Below, piece after piece: positions 7,006 through 31,539 of a stretch of DNA of 53,777 nucleotides. Source of the DNA: Nitrospira sp. (lineage in GTDB: Bacteria; Nitrospirota; Nitrospiria; Nitrospirales; Nitrospiraceae); assembly GCA_030692565.1 (NCBI GenBank), contig JAUYAO010000051.1, forward strand, positions 1 through 53,777, read 5' to 3'. Position 1 is the first letter of the stretch; each line of letters begins with the position of its first letter. Below the pieces are notes generated by a model. That model was not told the DNA's origin. It was given only the letters and a program-made list of their open reading frames with translations, and made no database searches. A program made the translations under genes and the position numbers.

Positions 7006-7887
7006 CTACAGCGCGCCGCTCGATGAGCGGCTGAAGCGATCGGCGAGGAGAATGCCCGTGGTTTTCAGCTTCTGCTCACTGATGGTGGACCGAACGGCCG
7101 AGAGCCGATTGGAAAAATCCGGATGCGTTTTGAAGAAGGCCCGGTCGTCGCCTTTGAGGGCCCGTAACCGGTCCAGAAATGTCTCGTAGGCGGTGGGATC
7201 ATACCCCACGCGCGATGCGAAGATGACTCCCAGGCGGTCGGACTCCAACTCTTTTCCCTGGTCCAGCCCCTCATCCAACAGCTTCTTGACCGCTCCGTCG
7301 ATCACATTCTTGAACGCGTCGGGATTCTTGTTCGCGTAAGCCAGGCCTGCTTCCGCCACGCCGGCGATCTGTTTGGACCGCTGAATGACGTCGAGGATAT
7401 GTTTCTGGGTGACGTGACCGATCTCATGGCCTAACACCGCCGCGAGCTCGGCTTCGTTCTTGATCGTTTTCAACAACCCGCGGGTGACGAAGATGTAGCC
7501 GGCGGGGGCGGCGAAGGCGTTGATCGAGTCATGGTTGAGGATTGCAAAGCGATACTCGATGTCAGCCCGATCACAGGTCAACGCGACGCTACGGCCGACC
7601 AGGTTTACGTATCGCGTCAGGTCGGGTTGGTCATAGACCCCACCATAGCGGGCCACGACCTGCAAGGCGATCGCTTGTCCGATGGTCTGTTCCTCTTCAT
7701 AGCCGATAGGCAGCAGCCCGCCGATGAGCGTTCCGCCGCCATGGATCGTCTTCGCCAGCCGTTCGTTCCCCGAGCTTCGTGCGGCGCCTTCGGCAGCCTT
7801 CTGGACTTCCGCACAGCCGGTCAGACCGGCGGTGGCAAACAGCGCCAGGCCGACAACGAGGAGCCCGCGTGATGATCTATTCTGCAT
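7006..7887 (-). CDS. M48-family metalloprotease lipoprotein (BepA/LoiP-like)
   Basis: 293 residues from the ATG at 7887, which overlaps the upstream SH3b gene by 11 bases. A lipoprotein signal (residues 1-25) ends in LTGC, giving Cys25 as the lipidated residue. The zinc site HEIGH is at 154-158, with the third ligand in ELESD (213-217). M48 lipoproteins such as BepA and LoiP degrade or help assemble outer-membrane proteins in the periplasm. There is no TPR region, so it is nearer LoiP in size. It is the last gene of an operon with an SH3b protein, an adenylate cyclase and a mechanosensitive channel, which points to envelope quality control linked to cAMP or stress sensing. Confidence 0.85.
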   Translation of the reverse strand: MQNRSSRGLLVVGLALFATAGLTGCAEVQKAAEGAARSSGNERLAKTIHGGGTLIGGLLPIGYEEEQTIGQAIALQVVARYGGVYDQPDLTRYVNLVGRSVALTCDRADIEYRFAILNHDSINAFAAPAGYIFVTRGLLKTIKNEAELAAVLGHEIGHVTQKHILDVIQRSKQIAGVAEAGLAYANKNPDAFKNVIDGAVKKLLDEGLDQGKELESDRLGVIFASRVGYDPTAYETFLDRLRALKGDDRAFFKTHPDFSNRLSAVRSTISEQKLKTTGILLADRFSRSSSGAL

Positions 7888-8401
7888 ATTCGCCGAGCCT
7901 CCCGGTTTTGAGGAATGCCTGGATATCTTCATCGGGAATCTTGTTGGCGGTCATCCGATCCACGGCAGCGCGATGCTGCTGGGTAATCCCGGCCCGATTG
8001 GCATAACTCTCCGATGCTTTATCAAGTCCGCGAGCGCCGGCCGAGGCGGTGACATTCGAGGCCTCGGTTTGTCTGAACCCCTTCCCCAGGGCGGCCAGCT
8101 CGTTGTCTCCTCCCGCCGGTTTCGATTCGGACACATGATTGGCATAGATCCACCCTTGGACCCCCTTGGCGGTTCGTACTTGCAGCCAGCGCTCCTCGCG
8201 TTTCACCACTTCCAGACTCTCGCCGAGCTTGAGGCTGGCGACGACCGGGTCCAGGGACGTCTTTCCTGAGCGCAACTGCGCGCTCTTGGCCGCGACGTAT
8301 AGAGTTTCGCCCAAGGCGGCAGCGGTCATGGTCATAGCCGTCACCATGAAGACTATGATGGCAAGGAAGGCATGTTGGTGATTCACGGGAGCCTCGCTCA
8401 C
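7877..8401 (-). CDS. Exported bacterial SH3 (SH3b) domain protein
   Basis: 174 residues. It has an N-terminal hydrophobic export signal (about 10-31, ending ALG), then an SH3b domain (about 33-92) with the typical AKSAQLRSGKTS start, the LKLGESLEVV turn and the VQGWIYANHV end. The remaining 80 residues are polar and helical. SH3b domains in periplasmic proteins usually bind peptidoglycan or peptide stems. It starts with GTG, whose GTGA overlaps the stop of the cyclase gene by four bases, so it is translationally coupled to it. It overlaps the M48 protease gene by 11 bases at its other end. Confidence 0.8.
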   Translation of the reverse strand: MSEAPVNHQHAFLAIIVFMVTAMTMTAAALGETLYVAAKSAQLRSGKTSLDPVVASLKLGESLEVVKREERWLQVRTAKGVQGWIYANHVSESKPAGGDNELAALGKGFRQTEASNVTASAGARGLDKASESYANRAGITQQHRAAVDRMTANKIPDEDIQAFLKTGRLGEYAE

Positions 8402-10575
8402 TTTGAGGTGAGTTCATACACGCCATCCCACTGTTCGGGAGGCGGAGCTATAAGGTACTCTTTGGCTCTTTCCAAGTAAACCCGTGCCGGGCCGTCCTTC
8501 GGGTCGAGTGCCAGAGCCGCCTCAAAGTGCGTGGCCGCTGTTTTAAAATCGCGCTGTTTGTAGGCCTCGAGCCCCGCTCGATAGGCCTCAATGTGACGGT
8601 GTCGTTCGTCAGGCAGCTCTCCCTTGCGGGCGAGCAATTCGAAGACTACCACGGGTTCCCGTTTACCTTTGACCCGCATGCGGTCGACTTCCCGCGCTTC
8701 GATGTCCCCGGCGGCGAGTTCGTAGGTACGGGGACCCAACAGGATCAGCGTGTCGTAAAACTTGTTCGCGCCCTCCAGGCGGGAAGCCAGGTTCACGGCA
8801 TCGCCCATCACCGTGTATTCCATCCGGGCCTGGGACCCCATATTGCCGACCACGAGCCAGCCGGAATTGATCCCGATGCGTGCGCGGATCTCCGGCTGTC
8901 CCTCGGCTTTCCACCGCTCGCGCAGCCTCGCGAGCTCCCGCTGCGAATCCAGGGCGGCAAAGCAGGCCAGGCTGGCATGGTTGGGCTCTCCGCGCGGCGC
9001 CCCGAAGATCGCCATGATGCCGTCCCCCAGGTACTTATTCACGTTGCCCCGGTGGCGGAGAATGATCTCCGTCATGGCCGAGAGATACTGGTTCAGGAGC
9101 TCGACGAGCCTCTCCGGATCCATCTGTTCCGAGATGGAGGTGAATCCGGCGATATCAGAAAAGAGCACCGACAGTTCTTTTTTCTCGCCGCCGAGCCGGA
9201 TGGCTTCCGGATTCCGCATGATCTCATCGACCACCTCAGCCGCCATGTATTTGTCGAAAACCGTCCGCAGTTGCCGGCGCTGTCTTCCTTCCGTCAGGTA
9301 CTCCACGGTCGCGGAGGTTGCAAACGAGGCGGCCAGCGCGCCTTCGGGTATGGCGAGATCGAGCCAGAGTCCGTGCGAGGTAAAGGCGTGGACGGCGAGT
9401 CCGTAGTAAGCGGTGGCCAGGCCGGCGATGGTGGCGGCCTTGATCCACTGGGATTGCATCAACATGAAGGCCCACGCGGTAGCCAGCGCAAGGACGAGCG
9501 TGGAGGCCGCGAAGACCGCCCACGAGGCCGGTTGGAGATGGCGATGTCTCAGCATATTATCGAGCGCCGACATGTGGATGAGGACGCCCGGTGCGAAGGG
9601 GGACAGCGGGGTCACCCGCAGATCGTACGTCCCGGCGGCGGTGGTGGCAATGAACACGATTTTGTCGCGAAACAGCGCCGGGTCGAGCAGGGGCGGCTTC
9701 CCGCCCTGCCTGTCGATATAGGAGCGGAGGACGGCTCCGATGGGATAGACGGGGTAGACGTGATTCTCCAGCGATCCGTGCCAGTCGATGACCATGTCCT
9801 GTTCCGCGGTTAAAGGAATCGTCACCGGTCCAAGGCGAAGTTCCCGAGGATGCAGGGAGGCTCGATCCGCTTGCAGGAGGTCCCGCGCGACAGCCGTGCT
9901 GATGTGCAGGAATGCCTGCTGCTGCGCGTATGCCAGTGGAGGGAGTCGGCGGGTGGTTCCGTCGATGTCCGGGGTCAGGTTGATATATCCGAGACCGTGA
10001 GCGGCCTGCGCGAACAGCGGCAAGGGCAATTTAGCCCCGGCGTAGGTCGGGACTGTTTCGGGTGGCAGAGCCCTCTGATCGTCGAGCGGGATCGTCGCTT
10101 TTTTCAAGATCTCGAGCGGGTACCCTTGCCCACCGTCAGGGGAAGCGTTCGAGCCGCCGGAGGGCTGTTGCTCGTTCTGCATCAGGAACGGCAGATAAAC
10201 GTTTCCGGCGGCCCGCATCTCTTCGGCGAATACCGCATCAAACTCTTCCCCCGACCGATCCGGTTCGAGAAACAGGAGATCGAAGATTACGGCTTTGGCG
10301 CCGGCCTCTTTCAGATAGTGGACGACGTACCCGTGCCGGTCACGGGACCAGGGCCACTGGCCGTAGGCTTCCAGGCTGGCCTCATCCACCGCGACCAGTA
10401 CGATGTCGCTTCCGGCCTTGGTGGCATCTGCGTATCGATGGAATCGATGGTCGAGTGTCTTGAGTTCGGTGACGGTGAGCCATCCGGACCAGTGCAGAGC
10501 TAAGGCGAGGAGCCACACCGCGCCTCCCACTACCGCTCCGGAGATGACCTTGTTGAATCGCGTGGCGGCTTGCAT
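8398..10575 (-). CDS. CHASE2 class III adenylate cyclase with C-terminal TPR
   Basis: 725 residues. One N-terminal membrane helix (about 13-32) precedes an extracytoplasmic CHASE2 sensor domain (about 38-345) and further helices (about 350-425). The cytoplasmic class III cyclase domain (about 463-650) has metal aspartates in LFSDIAGFTS (Asp474) and LGDG (Asp518). Lys514 just before the second aspartate favours ATP over GTP. TPR-like helices follow (about 661-712). It makes cAMP from ATP in response to an unknown periplasmic signal. It sits 39 bases downstream of a mechanosensitive channel carrying a cyclic-nucleotide-binding domain and is coupled to the following SH3b gene. This is the only cyclase in the window. 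Substrate choice is inferred. Confidence 0.9.
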   Translation of the reverse strand: MQAATRFNKVISGAVVGGAVWLLALALHWSGWLTVTELKTLDHRFHRYADATKAGSDIVLVAVDEASLEAYGQWPWSRDRHGYVVHYLKEAGAKAVIFDLLFLEPDRSGEEFDAVFAEEMRAAGNVYLPFLMQNEQQPSGGSNASPDGGQGYPLEILKKATIPLDDQRALPPETVPTYAGAKLPLPLFAQAAHGLGYINLTPDIDGTTRRLPPLAYAQQQAFLHISTAVARDLLQADRASLHPRELRLGPVTIPLTAEQDMVIDWHGSLENHVYPVYPIGAVLRSYIDRQGGKPPLLDPALFRDKIVFIATTAAGTYDLRVTPLSPFAPGVLIHMSALDNMLRHRHLQPASWAVFAASTLVLALATAWAFMLMQSQWIKAATIAGLATAYYGLAVHAFTSHGLWLDLAIPEGALAASFATSATVEYLTEGRQRRQLRTVFDKYMAAEVVDEIMRNPEAIRLGGEKKELSVLFSDIAGFTSISEQMDPERLVELLNQYLSAMTEIILRHRGNVNKYLGDGIMAIFGAPRGEPNHASLACFAALDSQRELARLRERWKAEGQPEIRARIGINSGWLVVGNMGSQARMEYTVMGDAVNLASRLEGANKFYDTLILLGPRTYELAAGDIEAREVDRMRVKGKREPVVVFELLARKGELPDERHRHIEAYRAGLEAYKQRDFKTAATHFEAALALDPKDGPARVYLERAKEYLIAPPPEQWDGVYELTSK

Positions 10576-28555: not shown

Positions 28556-28828
28556 GTGAAAGACTCGTCTGTTTTTCAGTTGTTCCCGGCCTTCGATGAG
28601 TTTTTCAGCAAGCATTATGCCGAGGCCTACGGCAGGAGATTTCAGATGTTTTGGAGGGGATTTTACGACAACCCGGCTCTTGAACGGCTAGGTATCTCCA
28701 CGCAGACTGACAAAACATTGTCTCTCCGTGCAATTGTGGGCGGATTGTTCTGGGCTCAGGCCATGTTTGCCGTGATGCCCGATCTGGTCCATTCGATTCT
28801 CCTGGCGGAATGGGATGCCTTCTTTTGA
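28556..28828 (+). CDS. Possible small protein upstream of the SulP gene
   Basis: 90 residues from a GTG at 28556 with AGGGG close upstream. It is aromatic-rich and helical (FDEFFSKHYAEAYGRRFQMFWRGFY) with a hydrophobic C-terminal helix (IVGGLFWAQAMFAVM). Only 32 bases separate it from the divergent gene start at 28523, leaving little room for promoters, so its reality is uncertain. If real it is co-transcribed with the SulP transporter that starts 62 bases later. Confidence 0.35.
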   Translation: MKDSSVFQLFPAFDEFFSKHYAEAYGRRFQMFWRGFYDNPALERLGISTQTDKTLSLRAIVGGLFWAQAMFAVMPDLVHSILLAEWDAFF

Positions 28829-28890
28829 TAGACTCCCGGCCGCAGGTTTGTTACGACTGTCCTGGGGGTTGTGTCCGGAAGGGGTTGTTC

Positions 28891-30537
28891 GTGCCCATCA
28901 TTCACGGTTTGTCGTTTTCCCATCTTCGCGGCGATCTCGCCGGCGGGGTCGTTGCTGCCGTTGTCGCGTTGCCGCTGGCGCTCGCCTTTGGTGTGGCGTC
29001 AGGCGCCGGGGCGATTGCCGGCCTCTACGGAGCGATCTTCGTGGGATTGTTTGCCGCGTTGTTCGGCGGCACTCCTGCGCAGGTGTCGGGTCCCACCGGC
29101 CCGATGACGGTCGTCATGGCGGGTCTTATCGTCCAGTTCGGTCAAGAGCCGGCACTGGCGTTTACGGCCGTCATCCTGGGGGGCGGGCTGCAGATTCTGC
29201 TCGGATTGAGCGGCGTCGGACGCTATATCACCTTGATGCCGTATCCTGTGATTTCCGGCTTCATGAGCGGGATCGGCGCGATCATCATTATTCTCCAAGC
29301 CGCTCCACTCGTAGGCCACGCTGCCCAGTCCGGGAGCGTCCTTGCGACGATGTCCATGCTGCCGTCGTTCTTTATGAATCCCGTGCTCGACGCGTTGATG
29401 CTCGGAGTCGTGTCGCTGACGATTGTGTATGGAACGCCGGAACCTGTGGGGAAAATCATCCCGCCGCCGTTGCTTGCGTTGGTTGTTGGCACGGTATTGG
29501 GAGCGTTCGTGTCCCCCGGCGCACCGGTGATCGGCGCGATTCCGACGACGATCCCCATGCCGGCGCTTCCTGCTTTCCATCTCGATGCCATGAAGATCAT
29601 CATTGGACAGGCGATCGTACTGGCCGTGCTGGGCAGCATCGACAGCCTGCTCACATCGCTGGTCTGCGACAACATGACGCGGACGCACCATGATTCCAAC
29701 CGCGAGTTGATCGGGCAGGGGATCGGCAATGCTGTGGCCGGCCTGTTTGGAGGACTGCCTGGCGCGGGTGCCACGATGCGTTCGGTCATCAATATCCGTA
29801 CAGGCGGGAGAACGCCTATTTCCGGTGCGCTCCATGCGCTAGTCTTGCTGGCGGTGCTCCTGGGATTGGGGCCGCTGGCGGAGCGGATTCCGCTCGCCGT
29901 GCTGGCTGGGATTCTCGTGAAGGTGGGCGTCGATATTATTGATTGGCGCTTGCTCAGGCATGTGATGCAGGCGCCGCGCGCAGACGTCACGATCATGGCG
30001 GTCGTCTGTGCGATGACGGTGTTGGCAGACCTCATCATGGCGGTGGCCGTGGGGCTGGTATTGGCGAGCGTGTTGTTCGTCAAACGGATGGCTGATCTCG
30101 AGTTGATGAATCTGCGGATCATTACCGCGCAGACTCCGGAATCTCCACTCACGAATGAAGAGGCGGCGGTGCTTGGCCGTCACGAGGGCCGGATCATTTT
30201 GATTCATATCGACGGTCCGATGAGCTTTGGTTCGGCTAAGGACATGGTCCGTCGCTTAGAGGGTGTTTCGCGATGGAGCAGTTTTTCAGTCGTTGTACTG
30301 GACTTGTCGGCGGTGCCGATGATCGATGGGACCGCCGCGCTGGCGGTCGAAGATATGATTCACATGGCGGAGTCCCATCACCAGCATCTTGTACTCGTGG
30401 GGATGCAAGCGGTTGTGAGGGAGGTGCTGGAGGGGTTGGGAGTGTTGCGGCTGATACCATTGGGCAACCAGCATGCCTCCAGGCTCGATGCGCTTCACCA
30501 TGCGGCCCGTCTCGCTACATCGCCTGTCGCCTCATAG
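28891..30537 (+). CDS. SulP-family anion transporter with STAS domain
   Basis: 548 residues from a GTG at 28891 with GGAAGGGG a few bases upstream. The SulP membrane domain (about 15-400, 12-14 helices) includes the signature GGTPAQVSGPTGPMTVVMAG in the first third. A C-terminal cytosolic STAS domain (about 430-545) carries DLSAVPMIDGTAALAVEDM. The family moves sulfate, bicarbonate, molybdate or other anions, some with Na+. For a CO2-fixing cell, bicarbonate uptake (BicA type) is attractive, but substrate cannot be told from sequence. Confidence 0.88.
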   Translation: MPIIHGLSFSHLRGDLAGGVVAAVVALPLALAFGVASGAGAIAGLYGAIFVGLFAALFGGTPAQVSGPTGPMTVVMAGLIVQFGQEPALAFTAVILGGGLQILLGLSGVGRYITLMPYPVISGFMSGIGAIIIILQAAPLVGHAAQSGSVLATMSMLPSFFMNPVLDALMLGVVSLTIVYGTPEPVGKIIPPPLLALVVGTVLGAFVSPGAPVIGAIPTTIPMPALPAFHLDAMKIIIGQAIVLAVLGSIDSLLTSLVCDNMTRTHHDSNRELIGQGIGNAVAGLFGGLPGAGATMRSVINIRTGGRTPISGALHALVLLAVLLGLGPLAERIPLAVLAGILVKVGVDIIDWRLLRHVMQAPRADVTIMAVVCAMTVLADLIMAVAVGLVLASVLFVKRMADLELMNLRIITAQTPESPLTNEEAAVLGRHEGRIILIHIDGPMSFGSAKDMVRRLEGVSRWSSFSVVVLDLSAVPMIDGTAALAVEDMIHMAESHHQHLVLVGMQAVVREVLEGLGVLRLIPLGNQHASRLDALHHAARLATSPVAS

Positions 30538-30664
30538 TCCCAGCGTCCTTTCGTTCCCCGCTTGAACCAGGTCCCCTGTTTTTGACGCCTTCCCGGTCAC
30601 GGCGTAGGGTTCTCCCACGTCACTGCTTTCAACGACAGGATTCGGTCCGAGCCGGGAGGATTGC

Positions 30665-30937
30665 ATGCCAACCACCATTTTAGAGATTGCCACCAGGATT
30701 GCCGAGCTCGAGCAGCAGCTGGAGCGAGCGGTGGCGGAAGAAGTGGAGGCAAAACGTCGCGAGTTTCTCGATTTCGGCGACGTGCTGCCCTCAAATCCTG
30801 AGCCTGGGTGTGTTGGTCTGATCCCTCACTCGCTGATCTGTACCTGGCTGAGGGGGGAAAGGGAGCTTCTGCCCACAGCTGATCGGATGACACGAAGAGT
30901 CTCTTCAGCGGTATTCGTTCTGGTGGCTCTCCGTTGA
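30665..30937 (+). CDS. Short coiled-coil protein, possibly a remnant
   Basis: 90 residues. The start is preceded by GGAGGATT. Residues 1-36 form a heptad-like helix (IATRIAELEQQLERAVAEEV), as in H-NS-like or other small DNA-associated proteins. From about residue 38 onward the sequence loses any pattern, so the C-terminal half may be out-of-frame or decayed. No partner nearby. I would treat this as a candidate only. Confidence 0.35.
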   Translation: MPTTILEIATRIAELEQQLERAVAEEVEAKRREFLDFGDVLPSNPEPGCVGLIPHSLICTWLRGERELLPTADRMTRRVSSAVFVLVALR

Positions 30938-31204
30938 TTGAGAATCGGTCCTCCACCGTGCAGGTCCTCGTTTCCGACATCCGCATTGCGCCGAGTGTGT
31001 GGAATGGGCGTTGCCTTCGCGAGAGGTGGTGATGAACTGCCCAGTTCGAGGCACGGTTTTACCTGAATTGTACAACGCTGCTGTGTCGCAGAGTCTTATG
31101 ATTTCTTACTGAGGCCATTGTGCTGAATGGATATCTACTGAACAGGCTTGCTGTTCATGTCATTGCGGATGTCCGGATCGCCAAAGCCATTACAGTGGAA
31201 AGAG
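30938..31204 (+). other. Leader and regulatory interval before the sigma-54 site
   Basis: No gene is supported here. The interval lies between a doubtful short gene and the sigma-54 promoter and would be the place for enhancer-binding-protein sites. A short inverted element CTGCTGTGTCGCAG is present around 31079-31092, too short to assign. Confidence 0.3.
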
Positions 31205-31220
31205 TGGCACCTCCCTTGCA
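31205..31220 (+). promoter_or_regulatory. Consensus sigma-54 (-24/-12) promoter
   Basis: TGGCAC at 31205-31210, five bases, then TTGCA at 31216-31220 reproduce the RpoN consensus, with GG and GC exactly ten bases apart. The expected start is about 31231, giving a leader of about 80 bases to the ATG at 31313. No other candidate of this quality was noticed in the window. Confidence 0.65.
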
Positions 31221-31254
31221 GTCTTGAGCCTCCGCCAGAACGCCGGGGCAATGG

Positions 31255-31266
31255 TTGCCTAGGCAA
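31255..31266 (+). promoter_or_regulatory. Perfect 12-bp palindrome in the leader (TTGCCTAGGCAA)
   Basis: The palindrome lies about 25 bases after the predicted sigma-54 start and 46 bases before the ATG at 31313. It could be an operator for a dimeric repressor or part of an RNA element. Length alone does not prove function. Confidence 0.3.
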
Positions 31267-31312
31267 ACAATACATTGGGGCTCAGTTCATTCGAAGGGAG
31301 ATCGAGTTGCAT

Positions 31313-31480
31313 ATGGTTACGTTAATTGGGATTGTGACGATGAGTTCGTTGGTGTGGGTTCTGACGTTCTGCCTGGCAAGGGAAAGTGATGCCGAGAGGC
31401 GTCGCATGAGCACCCTTTCCGCAAAAGATTTCTCGCCGAGCTTCGCCGTGAGCCGTGAGGATCTGAAGCTGGCTGCTTAG
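31313..31480 (+). CDS. 55-residue single-pass membrane microprotein
   Basis: 55 residues from the ATG at 31313, with AAGGGAGA upstream. One membrane helix (residues 2-22, VTLIGIVTMSSLVWVLTFCLA) is followed by a charged cytosolic tail (RESDAERRRMSTLSAKDF). It lies between a consensus sigma-54 promoter and a strong hairpin, so it forms a complete small transcription unit. The frame is open further upstream, but that part crosses the promoter. The family is not recognised; such proteins often regulate a membrane partner. Confidence 0.6.
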   Translation: MVTLIGIVTMSSLVWVLTFCLARESDAERRRMSTLSAKDFSPSFAVSREDLKLAA

Positions 31481-31511
31481 CCTCTCGTATCTATCAAAGA
31501 GCAGCGTCTGA

Positions 31512-31539
31512 CTCTGGATGCGGCGTGCCGCATCCAGAG
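31512..31539. terminator. Strong 12-bp hairpin between convergent genes
   Basis: CTCTGGATGCGG pairs perfectly with CCGCATCCAGAG around a four-base loop (31524-31527). It sits 32 bases after the microprotein stop and 70 bases before the convergent stop at 31612. There is no T-run. A second, shorter GC stem (CCCGG/CCGGG, 31585-31601) followed by CTTTATT reads as a plus-strand terminator. Confidence 0.6.

Follow-up and report, generated by a model that had tools for sequence, protein, structure and literature searches.

Two described systems come closest to the locus presented here. One is Psp, in which PspB and PspG are small inner-membrane proteins whose genes need sigma-54 together with an enhancer-binding protein, in this case PspF (PMC3068692). 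The other is that of small accessory subunits of membrane complexes such as CydX (see also PMC4325964), which are short single-helix proteins usually encoded next to other membrane-protein genes. A third, uncharacterised counterpart is a gene cluster of Nitrospiraceae that encodes membrane proteins of about 317, 59 and 55 amino acids; the 55-aa member and the protein of this locus are paralogues, with 42% identity to the copy in the window's own genome.

The locus lies in a stretch of 53,777 nucleotides of Nitrospira DNA, here called the window. The original prediction described it as a compact sigma-54-driven unit made of a perfect -24/-12 promoter, a 12-bp palindrome in the leader, a one-helix microprotein of 55 residues and a strong hairpin, and proposed a specific membrane target for the protein; the observation itself is confirmed, and its interpretation is partly supported. 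The promoter, TGGCACCTCCCTTGCA, is indeed perfect (Table 1) and stands 108 bp upstream (-108) of the ATG of the 55-codon ORF. The exact pattern has seven matches in the 4.17-Mb genome of the window against two for a reversed control, and the TGGYAC variant has 58 matches against 37 for the reversed control, summed over the six genomes that carry a sigma-54-type gene (see below). Since the pattern is only moderately above control genome-wide, a lone -24/-12 match is weak evidence, and it is the position upstream of family members that raises the site above chance. One of the other six exact sites in the window's genome lies inside a long ORF, so that some exact matches are chance. The genes at the others were judged by eye, and some of them resemble genes for an outer-membrane-like protein and for BON and Hsp20 proteins, which would fit sigma-54 control of the cell exterior, the case argued in PMC3162934.

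Table 1. Features of the locus, with window coordinates and conservation in the syntenic genome G095.
Feature	Position	Strand	Details
Remnant of 197-aa gene (internal deletion), intact in G095	30665..30937	+	5' part 99 bp at 73%, 3' part 24 bp at 92%
Conserved block, candidate enhancer site	31067..31118	+	87-138 bp upstream of the -24 element; 41/52 identical to G095 vs 44/81 between block and promoter
Sigma-54 type -24/-12 promoter TGGCACCTCCCTTGCA	31205..31220	+	TGGCAC-N5-TTGCA, 11/11 consensus positions
Leader inverted repeat GGCAATGGTTGCC	31247..31259	+	12/13 identical to G095; better conserved of two overlapping palindromes
12-bp palindrome TTGCCTAGGCAA	31255..31266	+	Present; 6/12 aligned bases identical to G095
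Ribosome-binding region CATTCGAAGGGAGA	31288..31301	+	13/14 identical to G095
55-aa membrane protein gene, MVTLIGIVTMSSLVWVLTFCLARESDAERRRM...DLKLAA	31313..31480	+	Alignment with members of 52-57 aa; dN/dS 0.21 vs G095 (both branches pooled); predicted helix 2-39
13-bp hairpin at junction with convergent gene	31512..31539	.	Arms 31512-31524/31527-31539, 100% complementary

The ORF forms the 3' part of a longer frame that starts with TTG (31148-31480). This longer ORF was rejected, as the corresponding frame of G095, the most distant of four syntenic genomes (flanks 77-78% identical), extends just eight codons upstream of the ATG (63 aa). Other relatives appear by inspection to start at this ATG position or at most two codons away, and a TTG at 31307, six bases upstream of the ATG, is a possible alternative start. 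With a low dN/dS ratio against G095, which pools both branches, the reading frame, 82% identical to that of G095, is under purifying selection. The predicted structure has one long helix (2-39), with pLDDT values of 88 and 92 in the first and second ten residues and weaker ones after; another, short helix spans 48-54, with values near 50, and the mean is only 67.5. Together with a Kyte-Doolittle 19-mer value of 2.18, the model bears out, as a prediction, the microprotein with a single membrane helix. The helix is followed by ARESDAERRR, the basic tail of which (ERRR) would be cytoplasmic by the positive-inside rule. A search of solved structures gave no match.

The window and G095 share islands of conservation: besides the upstream block, the -24/-12 region (31203-31220) is identical at 16 of 18 positions and the ORF at 137 of 168, whereas the remaining measured stretches are 46-58% identical. 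As for the leader, the palindrome originally pointed out, TTGCCTAGGCAA, is present in the window, but G095 keeps only its arms, TTGCC and GGCAA, at another spacing (4 bases apart, 2 in the window). The strong hairpin likewise exists, with arms that pair throughout, but it is retained in G033 and G026, both of which lack the gene; in all likelihood it is therefore a feature of the junction towards the convergent gene downstream and not of the unit. A role as the terminator of the unit was rejected, given that the hairpin is absent from the terminator-like features listed for the window and persists where the gene is missing.

The protein belongs to a family of membrane proteins of about 55 residues that occurs in 56 of the 175 genomes of the bacterial family. 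Its members share an M-V/I start, IG and T within the helix, S..A..R afterwards, an Ala-Ala end and a length of about 55 aa, all of which are found in the window protein. A family profile reaches 11 of 79 genomes of the genus and, at E <= 0.01, 46 of 395 genomes of the phylum, the weakest of these matches being doubtful. Fourteen members searched against Pfam and NCBIfam gave no convincing match (best E 0.13 and 0.027, respectively). The paralogue in the window's own genome (G000:C37) adjoins a ~317-aa protein. A mobile origin was considered and rejected, as no relatives of the 55-aa protein were found in viral contigs or plasmids and PHROG matches were weak (best 0.013).

The promoter recurs upstream of other family members. 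Among 58 members scanned, five have, in the 150 bp before the gene, a sigma-54 site that agrees with the consensus at 10 or more of 11 bases, compared to 0.098 expected by chance; when the window copy is set aside, the count is 4 of 57 against about 0.1. The background of these loci, 1.27 million positions, contains not a single 11/11 site. The sites lie at -108 in the window, -105 in G095:C183, -75 in G290b and -83 in G232a (all 11/11), and at -87 in G359b (10/11). Six further members (G441, G462, G460, G455, G434 and G439) carry none, which brings the total to five of 64 members checked. The 58 leave out weak or broken matches (G281, G172, G420, G369, G410 and G216) as well as G054, G075 and the relic in G030:C5, and a family-wide search added 13 genomes, among which G428, G429, G431, G435, G438, G440 and G448 were left unscanned. 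The same promoter-gene pair thus recurs in relatives (G095, G290, G232 and G359), as the original prediction had proposed to check, and is found with the window in five genomes of three genera. A promoter with the correct spacing of the -24 GG and the -12 GC, standing before the gene in relatives as well, is what would be expected of a sigma-54-dependent gene. All five copies are of one sequence type, named the sigma-54 type only after the promoters had been seen, and rare (6 of the 175 genomes of the bacterial family); its sixth member, G265a, has only a weak site, GGGTATTGCCTTTGCA (8/11). In a search with A4, the six members of the type score 84-110 bits and the next match 65, A4 having been built from those same six. 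In a tree on a short alignment (51 rows, seven of the 58 members omitted), the type is not one strict clade (3 changes).

The genes that usually surround the family point to a membrane context. Counted among the 58 members without regard to C-terminal ends, a 59-aa one-helix protein is encoded beside 31 and a ~317-aa protein beside 23; both are present in 15 cases and either in 39. Since these usual neighbours are membrane proteins, the specific membrane target originally put forward becomes plausible as a candidate. Ala-Ala ends are shared by 53 of the 58 members, the other five being short or interrupted frames, by all 31 of the 59-aa proteins and by 16 of the 23 ~317-aa proteins, the remaining seven of which end otherwise. 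The retrieved loci contain 316 long ORFs, of which only 12 have an Ala-Ala end, and every one of these is the ~317-aa protein. LAA-COOH is the ssrA-type degradation signal (PMC7246954); it is found in only four of the 53 members with Ala-Ala ends, 31 having HAA or RAA, ends that may conceivably act as degradation signals too. The ~317-aa protein, whose structural model is poor (mean pLDDT 64), is present in 76 of 395 genomes of the phylum, all within the same order, and lies away from the micro-gene in g12 genomes. In the window's own genome, as in relatives, the ~317-aa and 55-aa membrane proteins, often together with the 59-aa one, are encoded in a cluster (G000:C37 46823-48045, L026); Pfam gave no match to its proteins (two ~317-aa, one 59-aa and fourteen 55-aa sequences searched). 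The 420 bp before the window copy contain no partner frame with AA, AS or IA at its end, and the neighbours on that side are the remnant of the 197-aa gene and then SulP.

Nitrospira are nitrite oxidisers, and a direct literature search for sigma-54 control in this genus brought up little in the portions of text that it reached. In the window's genome, rpoN is matched once and the sigma-54 activator domain (PF00158) 25 times, and the activator motif G[AS][FY]T[GD]A is not found in the window. The nitrogen or envelope-stress control that the original prediction associates with sigma-54 is only a candidate for this gene. In one of the domain-bearing regions, G000:C4 67124-68912, the activator domain is split into two parts with 1.3 kb between them, as an insertion might have left it. 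Additionally, L026 4364-5812 encodes an NtrC-type regulator with a GAYTGA variant; it lies close to the genomic paralogue of the window gene and faces it.

On balance, we consider it probable that the window gene, which encodes a solo paralogue of a small membrane protein with a single pass, is turned on by the sigma-54 promoter; its product would act on the membrane complex of that protein. Some enhancer-binding protein, perhaps bound at the conserved upstream block, would respond to an envelope or nutrient condition and activate transcription, which would start at about 31231. The product would then insert in an N-out orientation, its basic tail on the inner side, and in the complex could either join the 55-aa subunit normally present or displace it; its ssrA-like LAA end could allow its rapid removal. 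The retention of the window copy, even though the adjacent 197-aa gene was deleted, counts in favour of this explanation. Counting against it are the losses of the gene in syntenic genomes (see below), the rarity of the sigma-54 type and its scatter in the tree, the weak site of G265a, the modest genome-wide excess of the pattern, the ~317-aa proteins with other ends, the small number of LAA ends in the family and the lack of either partner beside the window copy.

The history of the locus bears on a rather less likely alternative, namely that a formerly useful sigma-54 gene is being lost, with promoter and frame still preserved in this strain but of no further importance. Of the four syntenic genomes compared (G095, G030, G033 and G026), all but G095 have lost the gene or carry a broken copy. 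G095 has the order SulP, 197-aa gene, sigma-54 micro-gene and convergent gene, which is also that of the window, where the 197-aa gene is reduced by deletion. In G030, whose flanks are 97% identical, other DNA, which contains a 446-aa ORF, takes the place of 28744-31331, and stops interrupt the micro-gene; in G033 and G026 nothing aligns to 30537-31513, and 21 bp stand in its place in G033. This comparison indicates that the micro-gene is probably ancestral at this place and dispensable. A frame that is not conserved, together with absence of the promoter in relatives, had been named in advance as grounds for rejecting the original prediction: this has come about in part, as G030 has its promoter gone and its ORF broken and G033 and G026 have no copy, but G095, G290, G232 and G359 keep both promoter and frame. 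Furthermore, decay would not readily account for a perfect promoter and an intact frame in which family-wide residues are kept and for the low dN/dS against G095, pooled as it is over both branches. Regarding the neighbouring transporter, the SulP-type protein encoded at 28810-30537 of the window has the bicarbonate transporter BicA as its best NCBIfam match, below the model cut-off. In G030 (L029, about 7647-9240 of G030:C5), the SulP gene and the promoter region are replaced, and the 446-aa ORF is transporter-like by eye.

Four relatives suggest a further, unlikely, explanation, in which the micro-gene is a phosphate-starvation gene whose sigma-54 promoter works with a PhoB-type regulator. 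In these relatives (G290, G359, G232 and G265), the -24 element is preceded, at a distance of 18-19 bp, by a triple repeat that is GTTAAC-like, has an 11-bp period and resembles the pstS boxes. These Pho-box-like repeats (L103, L107, L114 and L130) belong to four genomes of two genera and accompany sigma-54 or sigma-54-like promoters. They were scored with a matrix of 11 boxes upstream of pstS in the same genomes, with which the pstS boxes themselves score 9.2 to 38.4 in a leave-one-out test. G265a (18.8), which adjoins phoX, ranks first and G359b (15.9) second among 1.28 million positions scored, a pool that contains both. G232a (8.2) and G290b (3.0) fall below the weakest left-out pstS box, and two of the four repeats are thus weak. 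This explanation is further opposed by the window and G095, which have no box (best scores -1.3 and -5.0), and by the orientation of the repeats, which is opposite to that of both the micro-gene and the pstS boxes. A left-facing gene served by a reverse Pho box was considered and discarded, as no ORF looked common to the four genomes on inspection. Regarding the matrix, 29 PstS-like places were found, of which first 25 and then 19 were carried forward and 11 entered the final version; L180 (which shares the L169 box), L175 (equal to three used boxes) and L177 (one point lower) were left out. An earlier matrix built from the micro-gene promoters themselves was circular, with one site out of register, and was replaced by the pstS matrix. 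A direct literature search for a Pho box combined with sigma-54 and PhoB found no paper, and a second one gave, among the matches listed and as far as their excerpts go, papers on other species; in one of these, passages describe PhoB boxes overlapping sigma-70 -35 elements (PMC3616915).

Two weaker alternatives may be dealt with briefly. The single hydrophobic helix, charged tail and solo gene recall the small toxic membrane peptides of type I toxin-antitoxin pairs, an identity that is very improbable for a family with 39 of 58 members beside a conserved membrane partner and with neither viral nor plasmid relatives found, in a window without Rfam matches at gathering thresholds, a search that novel RNAs would escape. 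A -24/-12 match by chance, with the gene read from another promoter, would be in keeping with the genome-wide control counts given above and is likewise very improbable, as the site recurs before the same gene type in five genomes and falls in an island conserved in G095.

A broader model, speculative and rather doubtful in its entirety, would extend the favoured explanation, that of a sigma-54-activated solo paralogue, to a three-protein membrane complex of Nitrospiraceae. Its proteins would carry degron-like Ala-Ala ends (the 59-aa protein always, the others mostly), some Nitrospiraceae would possess a sigma-54-driven spare of the smallest subunit, and in two genera sigma-54 and a PhoB-type regulator would control this spare together, from sites at a constant distance of 18-19 bp. 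Be that as it may, the recurring pair of sigma-54 promoter and membrane protein provides a handle on the signals that are read by the enhancer-binding proteins of Nitrospira, and with the Ala-Ala ends that small membrane proteins encoded side by side have in common, it can be tested whether a membrane complex is subject to regulated proteolysis.

Compared with the described systems, the locus is like each in part. Unlike the genes of Psp, the window gene is solo, and a PspB match is absent among 14 members at E <= 1. Unlike CydX, the 55-aa family shows no match to a CydX-type family in the 14 members searched and has the unannotated 59-aa and ~317-aa proteins as its neighbours, and the window copy stands apart behind a sigma-54 promoter. 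The uncharacterised cluster of Nitrospiraceae supplies the direct paralogue, and the window copy differs from the 55-aa member of that cluster in being solo, in having its own sigma-54 promoter and in ending with LAA, HAA or RAA being the endings of most others.
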